DNA of 64,000 nt from Microlunatus soli (GTDB lineage: Bacteria > Actinomycetota > Actinomycetes > Propionibacteriales > Propionibacteriaceae): the NCBI RefSeq assembly GCF_900105385.1, contig NZ_LT629772.1, positions 496,001-560,000 on the forward strand, written 5' to 3'. The notes beneath the pieces were generated by a model. The model searched no databases. It was not told the origin of the DNA and saw only the letters and a program-made list of their open reading frames with translations. This document shows positions 49,477 to 62,678 of the stretch, piece by piece; position 1 is the first letter of the stretch, and each line of letters starts with the position of its first letter. A program made the position numbers and the translations under genes.

Positions 49477-49872
49477 TCAGCCGCCGACGGTGGTCAGGCA
49501 GAACGGGTGGCCGGCCGGATCGATCAACACCCGCCAGAGATCGGGACCGGCCTGGTGGTCGGCCTCTCGGGCGCCCAGTTCTACCGCCCGGTCGACGGCC
49601 CGCGGAAGGTCCGAGACCGAGACGTCCAGATGCATCTGTTGCAGTTGACCGGGCTCCGGCCACGTGGGTGGAACGTAGTCCTGCACCCGCATGAAGGCCA
49701 GCACTCGGGCGCCGTCGGTGATCGCGACGACCTGACCGGAGGGCTGTTCGACCAGGGTGGTCATCCCGAGCAGGTCGCGGTAGAAGGCTGCCAGCGCGGC
49801 CGGATCGGGACAGTCGATCGAGACCGCACCCAACTGACCGACCGGTCCACCGTCGACGGACCCGTCGGTCAC
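49477..49872 (-). CDS. VOC superfamily (glyoxalase/bleomycin-resistance fold) protein
   Basis: This 131-aa protein shows the paired beta-alpha-beta modules of the fold: LGAVSIDCPDPAALAAFYRDLLGM, a central segment AFMRVQDYVPPTW, HLDVSVSDLPRAVDRAVELGA and DPAGHPFCLT. The metal ligands are not clear. It starts with GTG overlapping the stop of the epimerase gene (GTGA), which indicates coupling. Function may be a small-molecule dioxygenase, isomerase or binding protein. Confidence 0.82.
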   Translation of the reverse strand: MTDGSVDGGPVGQLGAVSIDCPDPAALAAFYRDLLGMTTLVEQPSGQVVAITDGARVLAFMRVQDYVPPTWPEPGQLQQMHLDVSVSDLPRAVDRAVELGAREADHQAGPDLWRVLIDPAGHPFCLTTVGG

Positions 49873-50861
49873 AGCTTGGCCGCCATGAAGGGGATCTGGC
49901 AGAGCTTGCTGATCACGGCGTCGACCTCCGGATCGACCTGCTGGCGGCCCGGGTCGGCGTCGTACCAGGCGATCATCTGACGCGCGCCCTCGGTGAAGTC
50001 GATCTTGGGCGCGAACTCCGGCACCAGCGCGGCGACCTTGGCGTTGTCGAACGTCATCGTGTGTGCCTTGTCGCCGACCAGGCCCGGTCCCCACGCCGGA
50101 TGGACGCCGGCGATGGTGGCGGAGGCGACGTGCACCAGATCGGGCTGCTCGACGCCGGCGGCGTTGGCCAACTCGGTGTAGATCCGGTTCCAGGTGATCG
50201 GGTCGGAGTTGGTGATGTGGAACGCCTCACCGAGCGCGGCCTTGTTGCCGAGCAGACCGACCAGGCCGACGGCGAAGTCGTCGGTGTGGGTGATCGTCCA
50301 CAGTGAGGTGCCGTCGCCGTGCACCGCAACCGGAAGATTGCGACGCATCCGGTCGATCGCGGTCCAGCCGCCCTCGATCGGCAGCGAGGTCTGGTCGTAG
50401 GTGTGGGACGGCCGGATGATCGTCCAGTCCAGTCCGTCCAGTTCCCGAACCCGTTGCTCACAAGCGATCTTGTTCCGCGAGTACTCCCAGTACGGGTTGT
50501 CCAGCGGAGTCTCTTCGGTGACCGGGACTGCAGCAGGTGGCGTCTGGTAGGCCGAGGCGGAGCTGATGAAGACGTACTGCCCGGTCCGGCCGGTGAACAG
50601 CTCGGCGTCGGTGTCGATGTGTTCCGGTACGAATGCGACGAAGTCCAGGACCACGTCGAAGCTGCGGTCGCCGAGCGCCTCCCGTACGGTCTCCGGCGAC
50701 CGGATGTCGCCCTGCACGACCTCGACACCGTCCGGCAACGCCCGCTTGGACGAGGATTGTCCCCGATTGAGGACGGTGACCTGATGTCCCAGCTCGATCG
50801 AACGGCGGACGGCCGCGGTGCTGATGATGCCGGTACCGCCGATGTACAGGAAGCTCGCCAT
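49869..50861 (-). CDS. NAD-dependent epimerase/dehydratase family protein
   Basis: This 330-aa extended SDR has the cofactor loop GGTGIISTAAVRRSIELGH, VVQGDIRSPETVREALGDRSFDVVLDF, the active-site ISSASAYQ, and EYSRNKIACEQRVRELDGLDWTIIRPSHTYD. The Tyr-x-x-x-Lys is replaced by Y-S-R-N-K, which keeps the Tyr and Lys. A C-terminal lid follows. ATG 50861 has GAGGAG upstream. It shares translation with the VOC gene; a sugar-nucleotide or natural-product role is possible but not shown. Confidence 0.87.
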   Translation of the reverse strand: MASFLYIGGTGIISTAAVRRSIELGHQVTVLNRGQSSSKRALPDGVEVVQGDIRSPETVREALGDRSFDVVLDFVAFVPEHIDTDAELFTGRTGQYVFISSASAYQTPPAAVPVTEETPLDNPYWEYSRNKIACEQRVRELDGLDWTIIRPSHTYDQTSLPIEGGWTAIDRMRRNLPVAVHGDGTSLWTITHTDDFAVGLVGLLGNKAALGEAFHITNSDPITWNRIYTELANAAGVEQPDLVHVASATIAGVHPAWGPGLVGDKAHTMTFDNAKVAALVPEFAPKIDFTEGARQMIAWYDADPGRQQVDPEVDAVISKLCQIPFMAAKL

Positions 50862-50946
50862 GGATCCTTCTCCTCGTCGCTGTCGATGATCAACCTACCC
50901 AGCCGACACGGACCGGCCCGAGCCGGCCTCGCTGTAGGGTCTCGCC

Positions 50947-51492
50947 ATGCCGACCTGGATCTGCCTGCTGCGCGGGGTCAACCTCGGCGCCCGCAACAAG
51001 GTGAACATGGCCGCGCTGCGGGACGCCCTGACCACCGCCGGCCTGTCCGAGGTGCGCACCCATCTGCAGAGCGGCAACGTGATCGTCAGGTCAGCGGTCC
51101 GCACCCCGGACAAGGTCGCCGGCAGCATCGGCGACCTGCTCCGCGACCGGTTCTCGCTCGACGTCCCGGTGATCGTCCGGACACCGCAGCAACTGCGTGA
51201 TCTGCTGGCCTGGTGCCCGTTCCGGAAGGAGGCTGCGGAGCACCCGGCCACGGTGCACCTGCTGCACCTGACCGCCCGGCCCGACCCGGATCGGCTGCCC
51301 GCCCTGACCGGCCAGGACTGGGAGCCGGACAAGATCGCAATAGCTGAACACGACGTCGCGATCAGCTATGCGACCAGCATGCACCACAGTCGGTTGCAAC
51401 ACGGCGCCGTGCTCCGCAGACTGGGCGTTGACGGCACCGCACGGAACTGGCGGACGGTTCAGGCACTGGTCGACCTGACCGCCGCGGAATGA
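50947..51492 (+). CDS. DUF1697 protein
   Basis: This 181-aa protein shows the DUF1697 pattern WICLLRGVNLGARNKVNMAALRDALTTAG, THLQSGNVIVRS and the central PVIVRTPQQLRDLLAWCPF, ending ATSMHHSRLQHGAVLRRLGVDGTARNWRTV. The family is widespread and of unknown function. Its TGA at 51490–51492 adjoins the stop of the convergent gene; the palindrome TGATCA there supplies both stops. Confidence 0.9.
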   Translation: MPTWICLLRGVNLGARNKVNMAALRDALTTAGLSEVRTHLQSGNVIVRSAVRTPDKVAGSIGDLLRDRFSLDVPVIVRTPQQLRDLLAWCPFRKEAAEHPATVHLLHLTARPDPDRLPALTGQDWEPDKIAIAEHDVAISYATSMHHSRLQHGAVLRRLGVDGTARNWRTVQALVDLTAAE

Positions 51493-52245
51493 TCACCCGG
51501 CCCGAACCGACATCTGCGAGCGCAGCACCGCGAACTCGCAGCCCGGAGAGGACGGGTCGAATCCGTGTTCGATCAGCCAGCGGGCCGCCCCGAGGCTTCG
51601 CAGCGACCACCAGGCACTGATCACCTCCCGGTCGACGGCGCCGCCGTAGCCGGCCAGCAGGTCGTCCACGTGCTCCGCATGGCCGAGCGTCAGGGTGGCG
51701 AGGTCCCACAGTGGATCGCCCTGGCTCGCCTCGGACCAGTCGATCACCCCGGTGACGGCGTCGTCGTCGACGAAGACGTGGCTGATCTGCAGATCCCCGT
51801 GGATGAAGGCCGGCGTCCAAGGCCGCAATGCGGCCTCCGCCAGTCGACGATTGTGGCCGACCACCTCGGCAGGCAGCACGTCGTTGTCCACCAACCAGCG
51901 GCATTCGGTATCCAGCTCGGTCCTGATGTCGTCGACCCGCTGTCCGGGCCAGGGCGGCAACGGCGCGTCATGCAACGTCCGGATGGCGGCGCCGGCGGCC
52001 GCCCAGGCCGCAGCAGAAGCCGTCGACGGCTCCCCGAGTCGGCCCAGAGCCGTCCCCGGCACGGCTGAGATCGCCAGCACGGGTGGCCGGCGCCACAGCA
52101 CCTCCGGGGTCGGAATCGGCGCCAGCGTCATCGCCTCGGCCTCGACGGAGGTTCGGTCCTGATCGGCGTCGATCTTGAGGAAGACGTCCCCCACCCGCAG
52201 CGTTGTCCGCTCGCTGTGCGCGACGACGATCTCGACCTCATCCAC
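51493..52245 (-). CDS. Aminoglycoside phosphotransferase-fold kinase
   Basis: This 250-aa protein has the APH/choline-kinase fold: VFLKIDADQDRTSVEAEAM (Lys contacting ATP), HGDLQISHVFVDDDAVTGVIDWSEASQGDPLWDLA with Asp in the HGD and IDW motifs, and a helical C-terminus. It could phosphorylate an antibiotic, a sugar or a metabolite; resistance is only one possibility. GTG 52245 is chosen at the first strand; upstream sequence is not family-like. Confidence 0.85.
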   Translation of the reverse strand: MDEVEIVVAHSERTTLRVGDVFLKIDADQDRTSVEAEAMTLAPIPTPEVLWRRPPVLAISAVPGTALGRLGEPSTASAAAWAAAGAAIRTLHDAPLPPWPGQRVDDIRTELDTECRWLVDNDVLPAEVVGHNRRLAEAALRPWTPAFIHGDLQISHVFVDDDAVTGVIDWSEASQGDPLWDLATLTLGHAEHVDDLLAGYGGAVDREVISAWWSLRSLGAARWLIEHGFDPSSPGCEFAVLRSQMSVRAG

Positions 52246-52313
52246 GCCCGCGATTATCACCGCGGCATCCGCAGTGGACAACGGGATTTCGACTCCCCGG
52301 CCGACCCCGATGA

Positions 52314-53267
52314 TCAAGGGATGCTGACGCCGGTCAGGTCCTCCGACAGCGTCCACAACCGGGTCGCATCATCGTCCTTGCGTAGCGGTGCCCAGAGTCG
52401 CTGCTCACCCGCCGGACCGCCCAGGTTGCCCGGCCACTGCGGGCCGTAGCAGGAACCGTCGCGCGCATCGGGTGCGGTCGCCGCCAGCAACGCGGGCAGC
52501 TTCGCGGTGTCCACCGTGCCGACGATCAGACCGCGGGCCGAGAGCCAGCGGATGATCCGGACATCGCGGGTGTCGGTGTTGCGCCCGACCTCCGGGCGCG
52601 CCGACAGCAGGCCGGTCGGCGCGACACCGGGATGCGACAGGGTGCTGGTGATCCCCCAGCCCGCAGCACGGCTCCGGCGGCCGAGTTCGAGACCGAACAA
52701 CCCGCAGGCGATCTTGGATTGCCGATAGGCGCGCATGCCGTCGTACCGCTGTTGCCAGTTGGGGTCGTCGAAGTTGATCATGCCGCTCCGGGCTGCGACG
52801 CTGGTCTGCGACGTCACCCGCGCCCGCCCGGCGGTGAGCAGTGGCAACAGTGCACCGGTCAGCGCGAAGTGGCCCAGATGATTGGTGCCGAACTGCAGCT
52901 CGAATCCGTCGGACGTGGTCTGCCGATCCGGCGGAGTCATCACGCCGGCGTTGTTGATCAGGATCTGGATCGGCACGCCGTCGCTGCGCAGCCGCTCGCC
53001 GAGCGCGGCAACCGATTCCAGCGACGACAGGTCGAGCTTCTCCAACACCAGCCTGGCCGCCGGATGCCGATCACGGATCTTGGTCACGGCGGCCTCCCCC
53101 TTGACCGGATTACGCACCGGCATCACCACCTCGGCTCCGGCACCGGCCAACGCGGTCGCGATCCCGAGTCCGACCCCGTCGCTGGCGCCGGTGACGACTG
53201 CACGCTTGCCGCTGAGGTCGGGAATGCTGACGTCGTACCGTCTGCCGTCGCTCCTGCTGAGTGGCAT
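52314..53267 (-). CDS. SDR family oxidoreductase
   Basis: This 317-aa short-chain dehydrogenase of the retinol-dehydrogenase-like group has [40 protein letters not shown] (Tyr-x-x-x-Lys) and a C-terminal lid. The [20 protein letters not shown] stretch is typical. ATG 53267 follows AAGGAG. It diverges from an MmyB-like regulator at 53388, an arrangement in which the regulator often controls its SDR neighbour. Substrate unknown. Confidence 0.9.
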
Positions 53268-53387
53268 GAGTTGCTCCTTGAATGGTCGGGGTGTCGCCGG
53301 GTGCTACCAGACTTGCCCACAACGCCGGCGTTATCCACGGCCTGACGATCAGTGGCTAACGAACCCGGTCCACGCAAGGATGCCGTC

Positions 53388-54224
53388 ATGATCGATCGCC
53401 CCGCCCTGGCCGACTTCCTGCGGAGCCGGCGCCAGGCGTTGCAGCCCGAGGATGTCGGTCTGCCGCGCGGCAGCCGGCGTCGTACCAGCGGGCTGCGCCG
53501 CGAAGAGGTCGCCGCGCTGTGTCACATGTCGGCCGACTACTACGCACGCCTGGAGCGCGCCCGTGGACCGCAGCCGTCCCAACAGATGGTGGCCGCGATG
53601 GCGCAAGGTCTTCATCTGTCGCGGGCCGAGCGTGATCATCTGTTCCTGTTGGCCGGTCACGAACCGCCGGCGAGAGGGACGTCCGGTGATCACGTCAGCC
53701 CTGGGATGATGCGGATCTTCGACCGGCTCACCGACACCCCTGCCGAGATCGTCACCGAACTGGGCGAGACCCTGCGGCAGACCGCGATCGGTGCAGCGTT
53801 GGTCGGGGATCTGTGTCAGTACGAGGGTCCGTCCCGCAGCATCGGCTACCGTTGGTTCACCGATCCGACGGCGCGCGATCGCTACCCGGCCGAGGACCAC
53901 GACTTCTATTCCCGGATGTATGTCTCGGGACTGCGCAGTGTCCTCACGCTCCGCGGCCCGACGTCGCGGGCCGCGCAACTCGCCGACCTGCTCGACGGGC
54001 GGAGCGAGGAGTTCCGAGAGCTGTGGAAGGAACATCAGGTCGGGATCCGTCCGCGGGAGATCAAGCGCTATCAACACCCGTCGGTCGGGTTGATCGAACT
54101 GCACTGCCAGATCCTGCTCGACCCGGAGGAATCCCAATCCCTGTTGGTCTACACGGCCACACCGGGCACCGAGAGCCATGACAAATTGCGACTGCTGTCG
54201 GTGATCGGCAGCACGATCGGCTGA
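53388..54224 (+). CDS. XRE-type HTH regulator with MmyB-like ligand domain
   Basis: This 278-aa protein has an N-terminal helix-turn-helix (about residues 5–80) with LADFLRSRRQALQPEDVGLP, RRTSGLRREEVAALCHMSADYYARLERARG. A C-terminal MmyB-type domain (about 105–270) shows PAEIVTEL, YRWFTDPTARDRYP and EIKRYQHPSVGLIELHCQILL. Such domains bind fatty acid-like ligands in known members. ATG 53388 is used; an in-frame GTG at 53352 would add twelve residues. The divergent SDR is the likely target. Confidence 0.88.
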   Translation: MIDRPALADFLRSRRQALQPEDVGLPRGSRRRTSGLRREEVAALCHMSADYYARLERARGPQPSQQMVAAMAQGLHLSRAERDHLFLLAGHEPPARGTSGDHVSPGMMRIFDRLTDTPAEIVTELGETLRQTAIGAALVGDLCQYEGPSRSIGYRWFTDPTARDRYPAEDHDFYSRMYVSGLRSVLTLRGPTSRAAQLADLLDGRSEEFRELWKEHQVGIRPREIKRYQHPSVGLIELHCQILLDPEESQSLLVYTATPGTESHDKLRLLSVIGSTIG

Positions 54225-54372
54225 TCCTCCTCATGCCGACCCGGCCGACCGTGTTCGGGCTGATCGTGCCGTCCGGTCTGGTTGCCCGGACTGCGCGCAG
54301 CACCGCCGCGATCATGATCGAATGGCGGATCCGGTTGTCGACCCGAACGCCGCCGACCAACACCGGCGAACG

Positions 54373-56574
54373 TCACCGACCGAGTCGTTCGGCCACGACG
54401 ACTCGGTGCGCGCCGCCCGGTTCGCCGACCTGGCGGAGCTCGGCCCGACTGGAGATGCCGAGCTTGGTGTAGATGTGCTGCAGATGGTTCTCCACCGTCC
54501 GCCGGGACAGACACAGTGCGCCGGCCACCTCGGCCGAGGTCCGGCCGGCGATCACCGCATTCATGATCTCCCGCTCCCGATGGGTCAACGCCGCCCCCGG
54601 GAATTCCGGGGCCGGTCGCCACCAACCAGGAACAGCCAGCTGCGCCTCCGCGGAGAGACGACGCACCAGCTGCCGGGCAGCTACCGCATCCGGCGTCGGC
54701 AGATCGCTGTCGTCGGCCGCGATCGCGCTGACGGCCGAGTCACCGGCCAACAACAGCATTCCCGAGCGATCCAACGATGCCGCCAGCTTGGCCAATCTGC
54801 CCGGATCATGATCGGACAGTGCCGCCGCATGCTCGACGAACGACTCGAGTAACGGTCCCTGCGTGACGGCAGAGAGATTCGCGATCCGGGACCTCGCGGC
54901 CTCGGTGTCGTTGATCCTCTGCCGCAGCAGCAGCCCCAGGAGCTCGATCAGAACGTTGCCCTCGGACCGGGCCCGCCGGCAGACGTCGGCTGCGAGCTCG
55001 GAGCCGGCCGACCGCTCGCCCCGGAGATCGAGGGTCACCGACCTGATCAGGTCCACCCATTCGTCGAGCCCCCACCACGCCTCGGCGACCGGACCGGTGG
55101 GGCTCGTCGGGCCGCACGTCTGCAGCGCACGCGCCGCGTGCTGATGCGTCGTCTCCGCCGCTCCCGGGCGGCCGGCGAGCTGTTCGGCGAGAGAGCGCAG
55201 TTCCATGATCAACGGTGCCAGTCCCAACCGCCGCTCGGTCTGCAGCTCCGGCAAGCAGTCTGTGAGCAGCCGTGCCGCCGTCACCGGACGCGCAGCAGCC
55301 AACGCGATCAGGCCGGCCAACAGGCAGCCTGCGGCGTGGCTGCTGGCTCGTCGTTCCCGCACCCCGAGCCGACACAATCGGGTCGCGACCTGCTGCGCCT
55401 GTCCTGGCTCGTCACAGAACATCAGGCAGATCCCGATCATGAACTCGTTGATCGGATCCGATCGCTGCTCCGGCGCCGCCTGCCGTGCTGCTCGTCGCGC
55501 GCCACGCAGCGCTTCGACGGCCCGGCCACGGCAGAGATCGACGACCGCGGACCTCAGGTTGCGGTCGAGCGGCAGGTGATCATGGTGAATGCGGCTCGGC
55601 GTCGGCCGGCGGACCGGCACCCGGCCGCCGATCACCCGGGCCAGCCGCTCGGACGATCGGCGCCGACGCAGGGTGGAGACCGTGGCCAGGGCGACCAGGC
55701 CGGCCAGCGGCTCACCGGACACCGACTCACCGTCGCTCGACCAACGCAGGTATCCGATCTGTTCGGCAGCTTCCAGCGACTCCGGATCATGCAGCGCAAG
55801 CAGGGTCCGGATCGGCATCGGCCCGGCCGATGCCAGCGTGATCAGCACATCGATCAGCTCGCCGCCGGAGTGGCCGAGTTCATCACCGATCCGCGCCTGC
55901 GTGATCGGCGGTACGGTGATCGGCCCCGTCCAGAACCACAGATCATTCCGCCGGCGCAGTCTGCCGGACAGCCGACCGTCCTGCAGCAGTTCCATCAGAC
56001 ATTGAGGGTTCCCTCCGCTGAAGTCCAGCAGCCGACGAGCGCTCATCGGTTGCAGCCGGCCGCCGAGGGTGTCGGTGGTGTAGCGCTGCAGATCGATCAC
56101 CCGCCAGGGCGCGAGTCGGACCAACGTCAGCGGCCGTGACGGTCGCAACGCACCGAGGACCTGGGGCAGCTGCCGGCTGCGTACGGCCCCGAGCAGACGC
56201 ACACCGTCGCCGTCGATGCCGTGCGCGAGGGCAGCCAGCGCCGGCAGCTCCCACTGTTCAAGATCATCGGCGACCACTACCACGTCCCGACGGCCGGCGC
56301 GCCCGATGACGGCCTCCCGACAGCTGACCAACAACGGATCGATCTCCCGACGCGATCCGGTACGGGTCCGGACAACGACCGGCTGGTGGTCGGGCGGCCC
56401 GACCCAGTGCAGGTCGCCGGCCAGCACCCGCAGGGTATGGCTCTTGCCTGCTCCGACCCCGCCGGCGACAACGACACCTGCCGCGTGCGGATCCGACAGC
56501 GCCCGCCGCACGGCTCTGTTGATCTTGAGCTGTCGATGGTCGCGGACAGCGGACCGATCTCTCGGTTCAGCCAC
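54373..56574 (-). CDS. LuxR-family LAL-type regulator with N-terminal ATPase domain
   Basis: This protein is about 733 aa. An AAA-type ATP-binding domain starts near the N-terminus (Walker A GGVGAGKS, about 38–45; Walker B VVVVADDLEQW). A long helical central region follows. The C-terminal LuxR helix-turn-helix is about 665–720: LTHREREIMNAVIAGRTSAEVAGALCLSRRTVENHLQHIYTKLGI. GTG 56574 follows GGGAGGGAAGG; a TTG at 56625 is less likely. It diverges from the repeat protein/protease cassette, and a CTACTC-based motif lies between, so it probably activates that cassette. Confidence 0.88.
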   Translation of the reverse strand: MAEPRDRSAVRDHRQLKINRAVRRALSDPHAAGVVVAGGVGAGKSHTLRVLAGDLHWVGPPDHQPVVVRTRTGSRREIDPLLVSCREAVIGRAGRRDVVVVADDLEQWELPALAALAHGIDGDGVRLLGAVRSRQLPQVLGALRPSRPLTLVRLAPWRVIDLQRYTTDTLGGRLQPMSARRLLDFSGGNPQCLMELLQDGRLSGRLRRRNDLWFWTGPITVPPITQARIGDELGHSGGELIDVLITLASAGPMPIRTLLALHDPESLEAAEQIGYLRWSSDGESVSGEPLAGLVALATVSTLRRRRSSERLARVIGGRVPVRRPTPSRIHHDHLPLDRNLRSAVVDLCRGRAVEALRGARRAARQAAPEQRSDPINEFMIGICLMFCDEPGQAQQVATRLCRLGVRERRASSHAAGCLLAGLIALAAARPVTAARLLTDCLPELQTERRLGLAPLIMELRSLAEQLAGRPGAAETTHQHAARALQTCGPTSPTGPVAEAWWGLDEWVDLIRSVTLDLRGERSAGSELAADVCRRARSEGNVLIELLGLLLRQRINDTEAARSRIANLSAVTQGPLLESFVEHAAALSDHDPGRLAKLAASLDRSGMLLLAGDSAVSAIAADDSDLPTPDAVAARQLVRRLSAEAQLAVPGWWRPAPEFPGAALTHREREIMNAVIAGRTSAEVAGALCLSRRTVENHLQHIYTKLGISSRAELRQVGEPGGAHRVVVAERLGR

Positions 56575-56654
56575 TGGCCTTCCCTCCCTCGCGGGCCCCA
56601 GTGCACCCAGTATCGACCTCGTCAACGGGCCAGGTCCTCAGTGCTAGTACGCAG

Positions 56655-56726
56655 CTACTCAGCACAACGGAAGCTTCGCCGACTACTCGCCGGTCAGATC
56701 GACCGAAGTGGAGTAGCCGACTACTC
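56655..56726. promoter_or_regulatory. CTACTC-based operator region between the LuxR gene and the repeat-protein cassette
   Basis: CTACTC occurs at 56655–56660, 56683–56688 and 56721–56726. The last copy forms a perfect palindrome gagtagccgactactc (56711–56726) with an inverted copy. This is typical in shape of LuxR-family binding sites. The stretch 56575–56796 has no other feature. Confidence 0.55.
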
Positions 56727-56796
56727 ATGCGGGCCCGCCGCAACGGCGCAAACCTGGTCGGAGGTCACCGACAGCCCGCGACACAGGAGTCGACTC

Positions 56797-57990
56797 ATGC
56801 CCGGAAATCTCACCACCACGTTCGAAAATCTCACCAGTACCTCCAGCCCGGCCGGCACCGCTGCGCCGGCCGCTGCCGAGGCCCCGACGGCCAAGCCCGC
56901 AACGGCTGGACATCCCTCCGACGGTCCGTTGATGGTCGTCCCGGCAGGCATCTTCGGCGACATCATCGGCGGGCTGGCCGGCACCATCGGTGAGGTCACC
57001 GGTGGATGGTTCGGCAATGCCCAGCTGGGCAAGACGCTCGGCAACGCGGCATCGCCGATCATCGAGCACTACGTCCCGTTCCAGGTCATTCCGCCGGCGG
57101 TCGCCCCGGCATCCGCCGGACCCGATGCTCAGCGGTCCGGTTCGTCGGAGCCACTGGTCGTCGTACCGGCAGGATTCCTCACCGGCGTACTCGGCGGCCT
57201 GGCCGGCAACCTTGCCGGCGGCGCACTCGGCGATCTCTTCGGGGACAAGGATCTGGGCTCGCAGATCGGATCCGGCGTGCTCGGGGCCGTCGGCTCGGTG
57301 TTCGGCCCGTTCTCCGTCATCCCACCGCAGGTCGCCCCTGCTTCGGCCGGCCCGGGCAGCGATGGTGACACGGCACCGTCGGAAGCGATGGTGGTCGTTC
57401 CGGCCGGCTTCTTCGGCGACCTGATCGGCGGCGTCGCCGGCACGGTCGGCCAGATCGTCGGCGGCGGCACCAGCGAGCAGGTCGGCGGCATGGTCGGTCA
57501 ACTCGCCAAGCTGTTGCCCTTCTCGGCTGTCCCGCCGAACCTCTCCCCTGCCTCGGCCGGACCGGAGGGAACGGGGAAGACACAGGACCTGGTCGTCGTA
57601 CCGGCCGGTTTCTTCGGCAGCCTGGTCTCCGGTTTCGGTGGCACCATCGGCAGCGCCGTCGGAGGGCTGTTCGGCGATTCCAAGACCGGCGGCGACATCG
57701 GCGGCCTGATCGGCTCGGTCGGCAGTCTGTTGCCCTTCCACGAGGTGCCCCCGGCGCTGCTCCCGGCGTCCACCCGGCCGAACACCGAGACCGCCGCGGA
57801 GGATCGGATGATCGTCGTTCCCGCCGGATTGTTCGGTGGCCTGCTGAACACGCTCGGCGGCACCATCGGCAGCACGGTCGGCGGGATGTTCGGCGACGCG
57901 AAGACCGGCGGCGAGATCGGCGGTCTGGTCGGTTCGTTGGGCAAGTTGCTCCCGTTCCAGGTGCTGCCCAGCACAGCAACGGCCGGCTAG
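56797..57990 (+). CDS. Five-repeat glycine-zipper protein
   Basis: This is a 397-aa protein. After a roughly 45-residue Thr/Ala/Pro leader without a signal peptide come five repeats of about 55–75 residues (46–109, 120–186, 198–256, 266–325, 338–391). Each begins M/VVVPAGFFG, continues DLIGGLAGTIG-type glycine zippers (GxxxGxxxG) and GGLFGD.K.GG.IGG, and ends LLPFxVxPPxxxPASAGP. Linkers between repeats vary in sequence but are bounded by conserved PASAGP and VVVPAG. Such helices can insert into membranes or self-assemble. No family is recognised. It opens a four-gene cassette with a subtilase; ATG 56797 follows AGGAG. Confidence 0.85.
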   Translation: MPGNLTTTFENLTSTSSPAGTAAPAAAEAPTAKPATAGHPSDGPLMVVPAGIFGDIIGGLAGTIGEVTGGWFGNAQLGKTLGNAASPIIEHYVPFQVIPPAVAPASAGPDAQRSGSSEPLVVVPAGFLTGVLGGLAGNLAGGALGDLFGDKDLGSQIGSGVLGAVGSVFGPFSVIPPQVAPASAGPGSDGDTAPSEAMVVVPAGFFGDLIGGVAGTVGQIVGGGTSEQVGGMVGQLAKLLPFSAVPPNLSPASAGPEGTGKTQDLVVVPAGFFGSLVSGFGGTIGSAVGGLFGDSKTGGDIGGLIGSVGSLLPFHEVPPALLPASTRPNTETAAEDRMIVVPAGLFGGLLNTLGGTIGSTVGGMFGDAKTGGEIGGLVGSLGKLLPFQVLPSTATAG

Positions 57991-57998
57991 GCAGTCCG

Positions 57999-58328
57999 AT
58001 GACCTTCACCTGGAACAGGTCCAAGCTGCCTCAGGACCAGGACCGGGCGGCCCTGCTGCCGGCATCGACGCCGGCGCCGGCAGCAGCCGCCGCCCCGGTC
58101 GACGATCCGCGGTGGCAGCAGGTCGGGAACTTGATCATCGGCCTGTACGACTATCTCCGGACCAACGTCGACGCCCATCCGGCACTGGCCGCGGTGATCC
58201 CGACGCTGAGCTCGGCGGTCGCGGACTACCGATCACGGCAGTCGGCCGATCCGTTCGATCCGGTCCGCACGGTGTTGGCCGCCGTCCAGCAGCAGCGCGC
58301 TCGGGACAGCTCGATCCCCGAGCCGTGA
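57999..58328 (+). CDS. Small protein of the repeat-protein/protease cassette
   Basis: This 109-aa protein has a Pro/Ala-rich stretch (about 20–35), then a helical part WQQVGNLIIGLYDYLRTNVDAHPALAAVIPTLSSAVADYRSRQ and a basic C-terminus. There is no signal peptide or TM segment. It starts 8 nt after the repeat gene, so it is in the same transcript. No family is recognised; a chaperone, adaptor or inhibitor for its neighbours is possible but unproven. Confidence 0.7.
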   Translation: MTFTWNRSKLPQDQDRAALLPASTPAPAAAAAPVDDPRWQQVGNLIIGLYDYLRTNVDAHPALAAVIPTLSSAVADYRSRQSADPFDPVRTVLAAVQQQRARDSSIPEP

Positions 58329-58355
58329 CATCAGCACCCCCGTCAAGGCACAGCC

Positions 58356-58583
58356 GTGTCCGCACCAGAGCAGTTCGTTCTCGCCGGGCCGACCGCCGAT
58401 CTGCGATCGGCCCTCGCGGATCTGACCGCCGACCCGGAGGCATCGGTGCTGTCGGTGCACGCCGACAGCACCGGTGAACCGGACCGGCTGGTCGCGACGA
58501 TGCTTCCCGAACGGGCCGCAGCGCTCGGCTCGGCCCTACCGGGAATCGTCATCGAACCCGATGCACCGCTGACGCTCGACTGA
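58356..58583 (+). CDS. Very small acidic protein of the same cassette
   Basis: This 75-aa protein shows one alpha/beta unit: EQFVLAGPTADLRSALADLTADPEASVLSVHAD, then ERAAALGSALPGIVIEPDAPLTL. GTG 58356 is 27 nt after the previous stop. The strand-helix-strand pattern ending IVIEPDAPL resembles the end of an I9 prodomain (compare VIEEDHLL in the subtilase), so it might act as a subtilase inhibitor or folding aid. This is a suggestion from shape only. Confidence 0.6.
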   Translation: MSAPEQFVLAGPTADLRSALADLTADPEASVLSVHADSTGEPDRLVATMLPERAAALGSALPGIVIEPDAPLTLD

Positions 58584-58670
58584 GGTCAGCGGGGCTGCCG
58601 ATCACGCACTCCGACGCCGACACACCGATCCGCCCGTCCGATCCCCGCCACCCTTCAGAAAGGTCCGATC

Positions 58671-60458
58671 GTGAGTCCCGAGAACACCACCGGTCTGCCG
58701 ACCCGTCCCCGTCGTTACCTCGTTGCGCAGGACAGCACGATGCTGGCCACGGCCGGCTTCGGTGGACCGTTGGACTTCGGCTCGGTCGTCGAGCAGTTGC
58801 AGCATGATCCCCGGGTCGAGGTCCGCCAATCGCTGCGACCACGCAGTGTCAGCGCCCAGACTCTCGGCACGACGATCACCGACCACGTCGTCGTCGCCGA
58901 CATGCCCGACGACGTCGCCGCCGAGCTGCGGGGGCATCCGCAGGTGGTGATCGAGGAAGATCATCTTCTGCAGCCGCAGGAGTTGATCGGCGGCACGATC
59001 GATCCCGGCGTGCTGATCCCGTTCGGCGTGAGCACGAGCTGGTCGCTCAAGATCGTCGACGAGGCGGACCGGCCGGTCGTCGGCGCAACCGTCTATCTCT
59101 ACGGCAGCGGCGTTCCGGCGCAGGGCCGGACCGACGACACAGGCATGATCAGCATCAGCCTGCTGAACGAGTCCGACGCCGGCCTGCGAGCGCTCTACGT
59201 CAATCCGCAGAGCGGCTACTGGTCGATGTGGGTGGACCGGCCGCAGCTGACCAGCGGAAGCCTCAACACCGTACGCCTGCAGTCGCTCGGCGCCGAGCTT
59301 CCCGGCTTTCCCGACCAGCAGCTGATCGGCTGGGGTCAGCGGGCAATGCGACTGGAATCCGTGCCGGCTGGGATGACCGGCCGCGGGATCAAGGTTGCCG
59401 TCGTCGACTCGGGTGCTGCCGTCCGCACCCATGCCGACCTCGGAGCGATCCACAGCGGGATGGACCTGACCACGACACCGGCCAATGATCAACAGTGGAT
59501 CGACGACACGATCGCGCACGGCTCGCACTGCAGCGGCATCATCGCCGGTGCCGACAACGGACGCGGCATCCGCGGGTTCGCGCCCGACGCCGAGCTGGTC
59601 GAGTTGCGGATCTTCCCCGGCGGTCGGGTGAGCAGTCTGATCGATGCCGTCGACTACTGCATCGACCAGCAGATCGACGTGGTCAACATGAGTCTCGGCA
59701 CCGGCGGCAGCTCCCAGATCCTGCTGCAGAAGATCGCTCAGGCCAAGGAACTCGGTGTCGCCTGCATCGTCGCCGCCGGAAACACCGGCGGCGAGGTGCA
59801 GTTCCCCGGGGTGTCTCCCGATGTGCTCACCGTGTCTGCGATCGGAAGCCAGGGAACCTTTCCCGACAACAGTTACCACGCACAGCAACGGTGGTCCGGC
59901 GGCACCCTCGACCATGATCTTTTTGCCGCGCAGTTCTCCTGCCACGGTCCCGAGGTCGACGTCGCCGGCCCCGGTGTCGCGATCGTTTCCTCGGTTCCGC
60001 CGGACGGGTTCGCCGCCTGGGACGGGACGTCGATGGCGACGCCACACATCACCGGCCTGGCCGCGTTGACGTTGGCCCATCACCCGGACTTCGCGGGCGG
60101 TGCGCTGTCCAATCGCAACGCCGCCCGCGTCGACCACCTCTTCGATCTACTGCGCGCTGCGGCGACCCCGTTGTCGTTCGGCGATCCGCAGCGGTCCGGC
60201 GCCGGGCTGCCGGACTGCCTGCGCGCGCTGGGTCTGCAACCCGGCGCACAGGGGTCGTTCCCCGATGCGGCCGCGGCGGACGCCGATGCGATCCGGATCG
60301 CGTTGGCCCAGTTGAGGCTCCAACTGCTCGCCGCGGGACTGCTGACCGAGCCGGCCGGGGCTGCCCTGGTCGACGACGGCCTGTCGGAGCGGACCAGGAT
60401 CCGCCGCGGGATGGCCGAACTGCGCGCTCAGATGCTGGCCGCCTCACTGTCCGTCTGA
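58671..60458 (+). CDS. S8 family subtilisin-like serine protease, non-secreted
   Basis: This is a 595-aa protease. Residues about 35–103 resemble an I9 prodomain (VVEQLQHDPRVEV...VVIEEDHLLQP). Residues about 115–205 form a beta-rich insert (KIVDEADRPVVGATVYLYGSG) like a carboxypeptidase-regulatory domain. The subtilase domain is about 215–490 with Asp246 (VAVVDSG), His283 (AHGSHCSG), Asn371 (VAAGN) and Ser454 (DGTSMATPH). A helical C-terminal region of about 95 residues follows. There is no signal peptide, so it works in the cytosol unless exported another way. GTG 58671 follows AAAGG. Confidence 0.93.
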   Translation: MSPENTTGLPTRPRRYLVAQDSTMLATAGFGGPLDFGSVVEQLQHDPRVEVRQSLRPRSVSAQTLGTTITDHVVVADMPDDVAAELRGHPQVVIEEDHLLQPQELIGGTIDPGVLIPFGVSTSWSLKIVDEADRPVVGATVYLYGSGVPAQGRTDDTGMISISLLNESDAGLRALYVNPQSGYWSMWVDRPQLTSGSLNTVRLQSLGAELPGFPDQQLIGWGQRAMRLESVPAGMTGRGIKVAVVDSGAAVRTHADLGAIHSGMDLTTTPANDQQWIDDTIAHGSHCSGIIAGADNGRGIRGFAPDAELVELRIFPGGRVSSLIDAVDYCIDQQIDVVNMSLGTGGSSQILLQKIAQAKELGVACIVAAGNTGGEVQFPGVSPDVLTVSAIGSQGTFPDNSYHAQQRWSGGTLDHDLFAAQFSCHGPEVDVAGPGVAIVSSVPPDGFAAWDGTSMATPHITGLAALTLAHHPDFAGGALSNRNAARVDHLFDLLRAAATPLSFGDPQRSGAGLPDCLRALGLQPGAQGSFPDAAAADADAIRIALAQLRLQLLAAGLLTEPAGAALVDDGLSERTRIRRGMAELRAQMLAASLSV

Positions 60459-60524
60459 TGACCACCGGTTCCGTGCCGGGATCTCTGCCCCGGCACGGGC
60501 CCGCGTGAGGAGTAGGTTCGCTGG

Positions 60525-61418
60525 ATGTCAACGGAGACGGTTTTCCGGTTCAGCAGCGATGCCGCGATGAACCTGCACCACGTGCTCTACTCCGAAGCGT
60601 GCGCTGCGGAGTCGGCGGCGACCGGGGCTCGACCACGTGCCCAGCACCTCGAAGGCGGGCTGACGATCCGGGGTAGTGCGGCATACGAGGCGGCGGTCGA
60701 CTACTACCGGCACGAGTTGATCACACGAGATCTCCTCTTCGACTCGACGATGCGCCGGCTGTCCGCCGAGGTCGCCGGCCTCGGTGGAACCGCACCCCAC
60801 GGTTGGTCGGACGTGTTCCAGCCTGCTCTGGGCGACTATCTCGGTGCGGACTGGTCCGGTCATGATGCGACGAATGTTGCGTGGACGGTGCAGCTCACCG
60901 ATCGGCTCGCACCGTTGCTGCCTGATGTCGTCGGCCGACTGGAGCAGGTCTACCGCACCCCGTTGCCCGACGTACCGGTGCCGGTCAGCACCGTTGTCGT
61001 GGGTCGCACCGAGCCGGCCTACACCGCGGAGGGACCGGACCACATCACCTGCACGACGACCCATCGCAAGAGTCAGGGTCTTCAGTCGGTGGAGATCGTT
61101 CTCCATGAACTGAGCCACCTGTTGGCCGGACCGCTGTACGAGGCATTGGCGGCACGCGCCACCTCGGACGAGCGTCCTGATCTTTGGCACGTCGTGCTGT
61201 TCTATCTGACCGGCCAGGTGGTAGCTCGGGCCTGGGCCGACCATGGCGTCGACTATCTGCCGTACCTGGATGCCACCGGTCTGTTCGATCGAGCCTGGCC
61301 GGATCTTCGGCAACCCGTCGGTGATGCCTGGAACGGCTATCTGGACGGGACCCGGGACTGGGACAGCGCCTGCGATCAGGTTGTCGATGCGGTGAATGAT
61401 CCGGCTACCCGCTCGTGA
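60525..61418 (+). CDS. HExxH zinc-metalloprotease-like protein
   Basis: This 297-aa protein has VEIVLHELSHLLAGPLYEALAARA, an HExxH motif near residue 198; the third zinc ligand is not certain. The N-terminal half is helical (AAMNLHHVLYSEACAAESAA...YRHELITRDLLFDSTMRRL). There is no signal peptide. No family is recognised beyond gluzincin-like appearance. It lies 66 nt after the subtilase on the same strand and may belong to the same cassette. Its 3' end precedes a dispersed repeat and the convergent trmD. Confidence 0.7.
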   Translation: MSTETVFRFSSDAAMNLHHVLYSEACAAESAATGARPRAQHLEGGLTIRGSAAYEAAVDYYRHELITRDLLFDSTMRRLSAEVAGLGGTAPHGWSDVFQPALGDYLGADWSGHDATNVAWTVQLTDRLAPLLPDVVGRLEQVYRTPLPDVPVPVSTVVVGRTEPAYTAEGPDHITCTTTHRKSQGLQSVEIVLHELSHLLAGPLYEALAARATSDERPDLWHVVLFYLTGQVVARAWADHGVDYLPYLDATGLFDRAWPDLRQPVGDAWNGYLDGTRDWDSACDQVVDAVNDPATRS

Positions 61419-61424
61419 TCAAGC

Positions 61425-61441
61425 CCCTCGACGGGCTCAGG
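61425..61441. repeat. Dispersed repeat, copy next to trmD
   Basis: ccctcgacgggctcagg differs by one base from 30224–30240. It overlaps the last codons of trmD and lies between two convergent genes. Confidence 0.55.
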
Positions 61442-62678
61442 AGCCGACCGAGTCCAACGCCTTCTCCATGTTGACGATCTCGGAGCCGTCGTGCGGCTCA
61501 TGGGAGATGACGCGGTAGCCATGCCGGGAGTAGAAGGAGGAGTTCGGTCCCTCCGAGCCGGTGACCAGGCGGATGGTCCGGCATTCGGCGGGTGCGGCTT
61601 CCTCGATCGCGCGCAGCAGTCGGCCGCCGATCCCCTCGCCCTGACGGTCGGGGGCGACGACGAGCCGGCCGATGTACCAGGCGTCGTCGTCGGTCAGCCG
61701 GCCGAGCACCGAGCCGATCACCCGGCCCCGGTGCACCGCGCTCGAACCCTGTCGGGCGACCAGTACGACGGCGTCGGCGAGGCTGGTCCGGACCTCATCG
61801 ACGGTCTGGGTGAAGGCCGGCAACGCCAGCGTCTTGTTGGCCAGCGCCTCGGACACGAACGCGGCCCGCTGCACCGTGACGATCTCCCCTGCGTCCTCCG
61901 CCGATGCTCGTTCGATGTGCAATGCGCCGGGACCGGACGGCGGATCGCTGATCTCCGGCAGCAGGTCAGGGCGACGCCGTCGGGTCAGCGCCTCGGCCTG
62001 TTCCCGGCGCCAACCGGCGATCTTGGCGTGATGGCCGGAGAACAGGATGTCCGGCACGTCCAGACCGCGCCAGCTCTGCGGCTTGGTGTAGAGCGGATAC
62101 TCCAGCAGCCCGTCCTGGCCGGCCGCATGCGACTCCTCGGCCAACGACTCCGGGTTGCCGATCACACCGGGCAGCAGCCGGACGACGGCCTCGATGATCA
62201 CCAGAGCGGCGGCCTCGCCGCCGTTCAGCACGTAGTCGCCGATGCTGATCTCGTCGACCTGCATCCGGGTGGCGGCGTCCTCGGCCACCCGTGCGTCGAT
62301 GCCCTCGTAGCGGCCGCAGGCGACGATCAGATGATCGGCGTCGGCCAGTTCGTCGGCGATCCGCTGAGTGAACGGCCGCCCCGCCGGTGTCATGATCAAA
62401 AGCCGCGGTCGGCTCCCGCTCGCTGCGGTCGAGTCGTCGGGGTCGGCGCCGACCGGGGCAAGATCATCAAGCGCCTCCCCCCACGGTTCCGGCTTCATCA
62501 CCATCCCGGCTCCGCCGCCGTAGGGGGTGTCGTCGACGGTGCGATGTCGATCATGGGTCCATTGCCGAAGATCATGGACGCCGAGGTCGACGATGCCGTT
62601 CTCGATCGCCTTGCCGACCAGCGAGAGGTTCAACGGCTGCAGGTATTCGGGGAAGATCGACACGACATCGATCTTCAT
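61437..62678 (-). CDS. trmD: TrmD tRNA (guanine-37-N1)-methyltransferase fused to a GNAT acetyltransferase
   Basis: This is a 413-aa fusion. Residues 1–245 are Trm[34 protein letters not shown], the SPOUT knot [24 protein letters not shown] and [11 protein letters not shown]. Residues about 252–413 are a GNAT domain with the acetyl-CoA loop RQGEGIGG (345–352) and [10 protein letters not shown]. TrmD alone is usually about 240 aa. It methylates G37 of tRNAs to keep reading frame; the added acetyltransferase's substrate is unknown. It overlaps rimM (ATGA). The canonical next gene, rplS, lies 39 kb away. Confidence 0.94.

Follow-up and report, generated by a model that had tools for sequence, protein, structure and literature searches.

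This study revealed that the genome of Microlunatus soli carries a four-gene cassette encoding a five-unit glycine-zipper protein (rep), two small proteins (s1 and s2) and a subtilase of family S8 (hereafter S8). It lies in the window, by which we mean the whole 64,000-nucleotide stretch that was analysed (contig NZ_LT629772.1, positions 496,001 to 560,000), in a genome assembled as one contig of 6.73 Mb. Judged by sequence comparison, the cassette travels as a unit and its genes form a conserved, co-inherited set, because the locus recurs, rep and S8 can be paired in further organisms, and their distances agree. We tentatively propose, with somewhat less than even confidence, that it is a regulated and horizontally spread effector cassette gated by a protease, in which S8 would process rep, s2 would restrain S8 and rep would target a membrane. 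No description of such a cassette was found in the open-access literature searched.

Recurrence of the gene set and architecture of rep

The protein searches scored about 8000 candidates and listed 120 S8 relatives and at least 101 rep proteins including that of the window, 89 of an actinobacterial type and 12 of another type. Three loci were obtained from a scan of species genomes: L004 in an Arthrobacter metagenome-assembled genome, L005 in a Microbacterium metagenome-assembled genome, where the locus is broken off inside rep, and L006 in Microbacteriaceae VKM Ac-2854. All four genes are present in L004, in the order rep, s1, s2, S8, with identities to the window of 42% for s1, 42% for s2 and 63% for S8. 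In L006 the order is LAL (a LuxR-type regulator), rep, s2, S8; s1 was not found there, S8 is 56% identical, and s2 (38%) was assigned by position and alignment, with no tblastn match at 1e-5. An SDR in L004 resembling one in the window (33%) belongs to a common enzyme type and was excluded from the cassette.

Apart from the window, L004 and L006, rep-S8 pairs were inferred from equal-sized contigs or from the organism name. Among 86 actinobacterial-type rep clusters, 25 lie on a contig equal in size to that of an S8 relative among the 120 listed. As two of the contigs could not hold both proteins, 23 pairings remain (14/24 on contigs of at least 10 kb), and an unmatched rep contig does not mean that S8 is absent. 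The rep and S8 distances correlate with r 0.80 over 24 pairs, against a permutation maximum of 0.31, and the nearest neighbour is the same by both in 11/24 pairs. The preliminary description, which was made from the window sequence alone, had tied rep to both an S8 gene and a LAL regulator. The first association holds in the window, L004 and L006, but LAL had no match in the 21 kb of L004. As to whether rep is widespread without the protease, S8 is present in these three readable loci, a count outside which the 12 other-type relatives fall.

Five units could be mapped in rep, in agreement with the earlier account of a 397-residue protein built of five GxxxG repeats. Its repeat part contains 30 GxxxG motifs, compared with 16.6 +/- 3.2 in composition shuffles, and the enrichment among 82 full-length relatives has a mean z of 4.9 (1.6 to 7.4). 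At the repeat boundaries, VVPAG is found in all five units; PASAGP marks the end of units 1-3, its place in unit 4 is taken by PASTRP, and unit 5 lacks such an ending. Exactly five units were detected in 82/82 actinobacterial-type relatives of at least 340 residues, with a unit profile derived from 82 proteins of this set, the search admitting only proteins of 0.55-1.75 times the query length; the seven shorter ones have 2-4 units. In 404 of 410 comparisons, the best match of a unit in another protein stood at the same index. By these comparisons rep is a fixed five-part protein with position-orthologous units rather than five interchangeable copies, and recent tandem duplication was ruled out because the units are position-orthologous.

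Mean column conservation is 0.33-0.44 in the linkers between units and 0.62-0.72 in the cores. The linkers are mostly hydrophilic, while the PxSAGP motif is conserved like the cores. The protein is net acidic, with 26 acidic and 11 basic residues. Its structure model shows a two-helix hairpin in all five units, an opening strand (VVVPA-like) in four and a three-residue closing strand (PFxV) in two. Neither rep nor s1 matched a model in Pfam, NCBIfam, PHROG or PADLOC. In a hydropathy screen, all four proteins of the window lack a start like that of a secreted protein; this is a simple screen rather than a signal-peptide predictor, and it was exceeded by 2/82 rep and 1/60 S8 relatives.

The 12 other-type relatives (P0082, P0088, P0090, P0092-P0100) have 3-8 units, and the named ones are proteobacterial. 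Several show glutamine-rich spacers and APQG where VPAG is expected. Their Pfam matches to PspC, PE and DUF5832 seem to be repeat-driven cross-hits and were not used.

The protease, its propeptide-like partner and the regulator

As previously noted, the two small proteins and S8 follow rep closely on the same strand, at intervals of 8, 27 and 87 bases. The reported subtilase with a full triad but no signal peptide was likewise recovered, as S8 matches PF00082 (E 1.5e-37) with its D-H-S triad in place and is negative in the hydropathy screen. Across 60 relatives, the catalytic Asp and His and the oxyanion Asn are each conserved in 60/60 and the Ser in 59/60. Of these 60, 53 match a CarboxypepD_reg-like domain at E 0.1 or better (best 1.4e-6), and Inhibitor_I9 gave no match at E 0.1 in any of them. 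The best NCBIfam match of S8 is the mycosin model TIGR03921 (120.3 bits, under the cut-off of 278.75), and the PatA/PatG model matches at 5.8e-9, far below its cut-off. Of the PADLOC models, a general subtilase model matched at 3e-22 and IetS at 0.0055.

More distant S8 relatives (38%) on two Streptomyces plasmids (L008, 7048-9596; L013, about 4.3-7.6 kb) lie downstream of a Gln/Gly-rich low-complexity protein, which may serve this protease type as an alternative partner. On Paracoccus and Pararhizobium plasmids (L010, 7602-9408; L011, 7662-9412), a protein of 83 or 81 residues directly follows the S8 gene. Its homology to s2 was unsupported at a profile probability of 0.4%, the agreement being one of size and position only.

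The s2 profile resembles the N-terminal region of its cognate S8. A first score of 97.5% for this comparison proved artefactual, since the open frame of P0148 holds an s2 sequence, and it was replaced by that of a later comparison. The s2 model is confident and has the beta-alpha-beta-beta-alpha-beta topology of subtilisin propeptides. At the top of the re-aligned fold list stands the free subtilisin inhibitor POIA1, on a par with ferredoxin-like folds that are unrelated to it. Pfam Inhibitor_I9 did not match s2 at E 1, and Pfam and NCBIfam scans returned only chance matches below cut-off. From profile and model, we propose that s2 is most aptly seen as a partner of S8 that resembles a propeptide and acts in trans as an inhibitor or a chaperone. 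This reading goes beyond the preliminary description, which did not include it. As for s1, it is perhaps an accessory protein serving as a chaperone of rep.

The divergent LAL gene (GerE match 8e-15) is separated from rep by a 171-base spacer containing CTACTC/GAGTAG half sites that start at 56655, 56683, 56711 and 56721. The palindrome reported in this spacer stood up well: the whole 6.73 Mb genome contains GAGTAG-N2..6-CTACTC a single time, and the palindrome is kept beside LAL in two loci, as GAGTAG-CCGA-CTACTC in the window and GAGTAGCGACTACTC in L006, both between LAL and rep. Each pattern arose in 4/100,000 single-base shuffles of its own spacer. The L006 and window regulators share 49% identity over 71 residues at the helix-turn-helix (HTH) end and 25% over 224 residues of the N-terminal part, and the CARF3 models of PADLOC match the window LAL through its HTH (4e-10). 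Within its 21 kb, L004 has neither the palindrome nor a LAL match. The palindrome thus accompanies LAL in two families and is missing from L004, where LAL had no match either; LAL is accordingly not obligatory for the cassette. The features are listed in Table 1.

Table 1. Cassette features, in window coordinates.
Feature	Position	Strand	Details
LAL-type LuxR regulator	54373..56625	-	750 aa, TTG start; P-loop N-terminal part, C-terminal GerE HTH
CTACTC half site	56655..56660	+	
CTACTC half site	56683..56688	+	
Palindrome GAGTAGCCGACTACTC, candidate LAL operator	56711..56726		70 bases upstream of rep start codon
rep, five-unit glycine-zipper protein	56797..57990	+	397 aa; N-terminal extension 44 aa, Ala/Pro/Ser-rich
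rep unit 1 (aa 45-119, with linker)	56929..57153	+	
rep unit 2 (aa 120-197)	57154..57387	+	
rep unit 3 (aa 198-264)	57388..57588	+	
rep unit 4 (aa 265-337)	57589..57807	+	
rep unit 5 (aa 338-397)	57808..57987	+	
s1	57999..58328	+	109 aa; FTWNR-like start; no family match
s2, propeptide-like free-standing protein	58356..58583	+	75 aa, GTG start
S8 subtilase	58671..60458	+	595 aa, GTG start
S8 N-terminal prodomain-like region (aa 12-105)	58704..58985	+	profile match to s2
S8 CarboxypepD_reg-like beta-domain (aa 127-174)	59049..59192	+	weak Pfam match in window protein, E 0.0028
S8 catalytic domain (aa 237-479)	59379..60107	+	D246, H283, S454

Rarity and genomic setting

The cassette is rare and probably mobile. 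A convincing rep match was found in 1/197 family genomes, with one further weak match, in 0/19 other genus members listed and in 1/396 phylum genomes; the S8 clade was likewise found in 1/396 phylum genomes at E 1e-55, in scans that scored few candidates per genome (4 for rep in the phylum, 3 for the S8 clade). Weak rep-like matches in genome G133 (E 1e-4) were not accepted as homologues. In the closest genus member examined (G125, 76% by TrmD), trmD ends at base 1497 of the compared region (L042). The next match, from base 1501, corresponds to window 49872-50894, and the order beyond it runs on through window 29-48 kb. The segment of about 10.5 kb that carries the cassette (50895-61436) is absent from G125, and the six genus regions that follow trmD (L042-L047) gave no match to rep, s1, s2 or S8 at 1e-5. 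At the ends of this segment, no shared direct repeat of at least 10 bases and no recognised mobile gene were seen, and no tRNA was found in the window. As the base composition (GC) of the cassette is unremarkable, the case for transfer is drawn from the distribution and the missing segment. Carriage on plasmids or phages was considered and dropped: rep had no match in 72,556 plasmid and 50,697 phage records, and none was confirmed in viral contigs (P0090 checked).

The same segment also carries genes for a DUF1697 protein, an APH-type phosphotransferase-family protein, an SDR and an MmyB-type HTH regulator. Window 60525-61418 (+) encodes a 297-residue protein with an HELSH motif, possibly a zinc peptidase, without a Pfam or NCBIfam match. 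It has matches in 3/19 other genus genomes, one of them a short fragment, and the two surrounding regions examined held no match to a cassette gene. Window 61437-62678 (-) encodes TrmD fused to a C-terminal GNAT acetyltransferase domain, and the match to this protein covers at least query residues 2-393 in 13/19 other sampled genus members.

Proposed mechanism, alternatives and known systems

According to the proposal that we favour, rep would be made in the cytosol as a single-chain glycine-zipper protein with one helical hairpin per unit, and the cytosolic S8 would be its dedicated processing enzyme, restrained both by its prodomain and by s2 acting in trans. A signal would relieve this inhibition, whereupon S8 would cut rep in its exposed variable parts, namely the 44-residue N-terminal extension, the linkers between units, or both. 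The five hairpins could then assemble on or in a membrane, most likely permeabilising the producing cell as a self-directed effector. The accessory s1 might assist rep as a chaperone, and LAL would control expression through the GAGTAG-CTACTC palindrome where present.

The gene set and its conservation, the five fixed units, the likeness of s2 to the S8 N-terminal region and its modelled fold, the palindrome kept in two loci and the accessory location are observed; the inhibition by s2, the cleavage of rep by S8, the membrane action and the biological purpose are inferred. Several observations weigh against this proposal. The rep model, while placing a hairpin in each unit, has low overall confidence (predicted local distance difference test 67, predicted template-modelling score 0.45), with residues 238-275 poorly modelled; a fold search with it matched no solved fold and returned nothing usable. 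The first helix of a unit exceeds shuffles in amphipathicity in only 4/5 cases (uncorrected). For s2, the modelled fold belongs to the common ferredoxin-like type, the lead of POIA1 over unrelated folds is below 1 Z unit, and the Foldseek list, topped by elongation factor G, holds no match under E 0.001. No PADLOC model matched rep, s1 or s2. The protease clade extends beyond the cassette: 95 of the 120 listed S8 relatives, many on short contigs, lack an equal-sized rep contig, and these 95 include some from Nakamurella flavida and Actinoplanes whose contigs are long. The 12 other-type rep relatives may work without an S8 of this kind. Finally, position-specific units argue against the release of five equivalent peptides.

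This last point bears on the suggestion that rep is a polyprotein cut at its variable linkers. The linkers are indeed variable stretches, but because the units are position-specific and always five in full-length relatives, a fixed five-part assembly is more likely than a polyprotein multiplying one peptide. The same fixed architecture would suit a self-assembling scaffold, such as a membrane domain, a condensate or a compartment-like body, that concentrates or stores S8 while the substrates of the protease lie elsewhere and rep stays uncut. Glycine zippers favour self-assembly, the CarboxypepD_reg-like domain of S8 could dock, and on the two Streptomyces plasmids S8 relatives follow the low-complexity protein instead of rep. 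We nevertheless consider a scaffold rather unlikely, though the strongest of the competing explanations: the variable, mostly hydrophilic linkers are what would be expected of exposed cut sites, and the window, L004 and L006 share no gene for a partner substrate next to the cassette.

The likeness to a bacteriocin locus suggested earlier fared worse. GxxxG motifs are typical of two-peptide bacteriocins, and PatA is an S8 enzyme of the kind that matures peptide precursors, which would fit the sub-cut-off PatA/PatG match if S8 freed five antibacterial peptides that leave the cell. This export is unsupported, because no transporter was recognised among the cassette neighbours Pfam-scanned in the window, L004 and L006, where not every open reading frame was scanned. 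Moreover, rep is net acidic and combines conserved cores with variable spacers, the reverse of cyanobactin-type precursors, and such a precursor is improbable. Only a small chance is also given to wiring of the toxin-antitoxin kind, with S8 as an antidote that destroys a harmful rep and s2 as a blocker of S8 under stress. The same gene set would serve, with s2 as the protease blocker, but fixed units and conserved linker-flanking motifs suggest processing over wholesale destruction.

A bolder version of the proposed gated effector, which we regard as unlikely, makes rep a single-chain pseudo-pentamer whose five non-interchangeable hairpins close into a ring or pore of new fold, armed by a cytosolic subtilase that is set by a separate propeptide protein. 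If true, bacteria would possess a pore system that is gated by a protease and has no relation to gasdermins. With its constant set of five distinct units, rep lends itself to a direct test of the ring or pore hypothesis.

Among known systems, the mycosins, S8 proteases of type VII secretion, provide the best NCBIfam match, far under cut-off. In contrast to them, S8 lacks a signal peptide in the hydropathy screen, and no type VII gene was seen among the neighbours scanned. IetAS defence pairs the subtilase IetS with an ATPase; the match of S8 to IetS is weak, lies within the catalytic domain and is far surpassed by the general subtilase model. POIA1 and subtilisin propeptides share with s2 its modelled fold and the resemblance to the N-terminal region of a cognate S8, whereas s2 and the 60 S8 relatives lack the Pfam match of I9-type inhibitors. 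Weak similarity to the glycine-zipper families PF13488 and PF13436 was found in 10/82 and 1/82 rep relatives, respectively (best E 0.0023), with no Pfam match of the window rep to either at E 1. Unlike these families, rep links five units and shows no signal sequence.

In fungi, HET-Q1 is a gasdermin-like protein cut by the S8 subtilase HET-Q2, and gasdermin genes are mostly clustered with protease genes, according to a review (PMC10989679). The cassette likewise places a candidate membrane effector near an S8 protease gene and, like the bacterial gasdermin-protease systems covered in that review, combines a bacterial protease with a putative dedicated effector partner. It differs in its five glycine-zipper units, its separate propeptide-like s2, s1 and LAL, and in that rep, s1 and s2 lack a PADLOC model. 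No gasdermin match to rep was found in Pfam, NCBIfam or PDB sequences, its model being too weak for a fold search to exclude one, and since no gasdermin relationship was found the cassette was not filed with the HET-Q or gasdermin systems. Should S8 gate rep, the cassette would represent a second, gasdermin-independent bacterial design for protease-controlled membrane effectors, with the free-standing propeptide as its safety catch. HET-Q1/HET-Q2 is the nearest known wiring, and by analogy the cassette possibly works like it.

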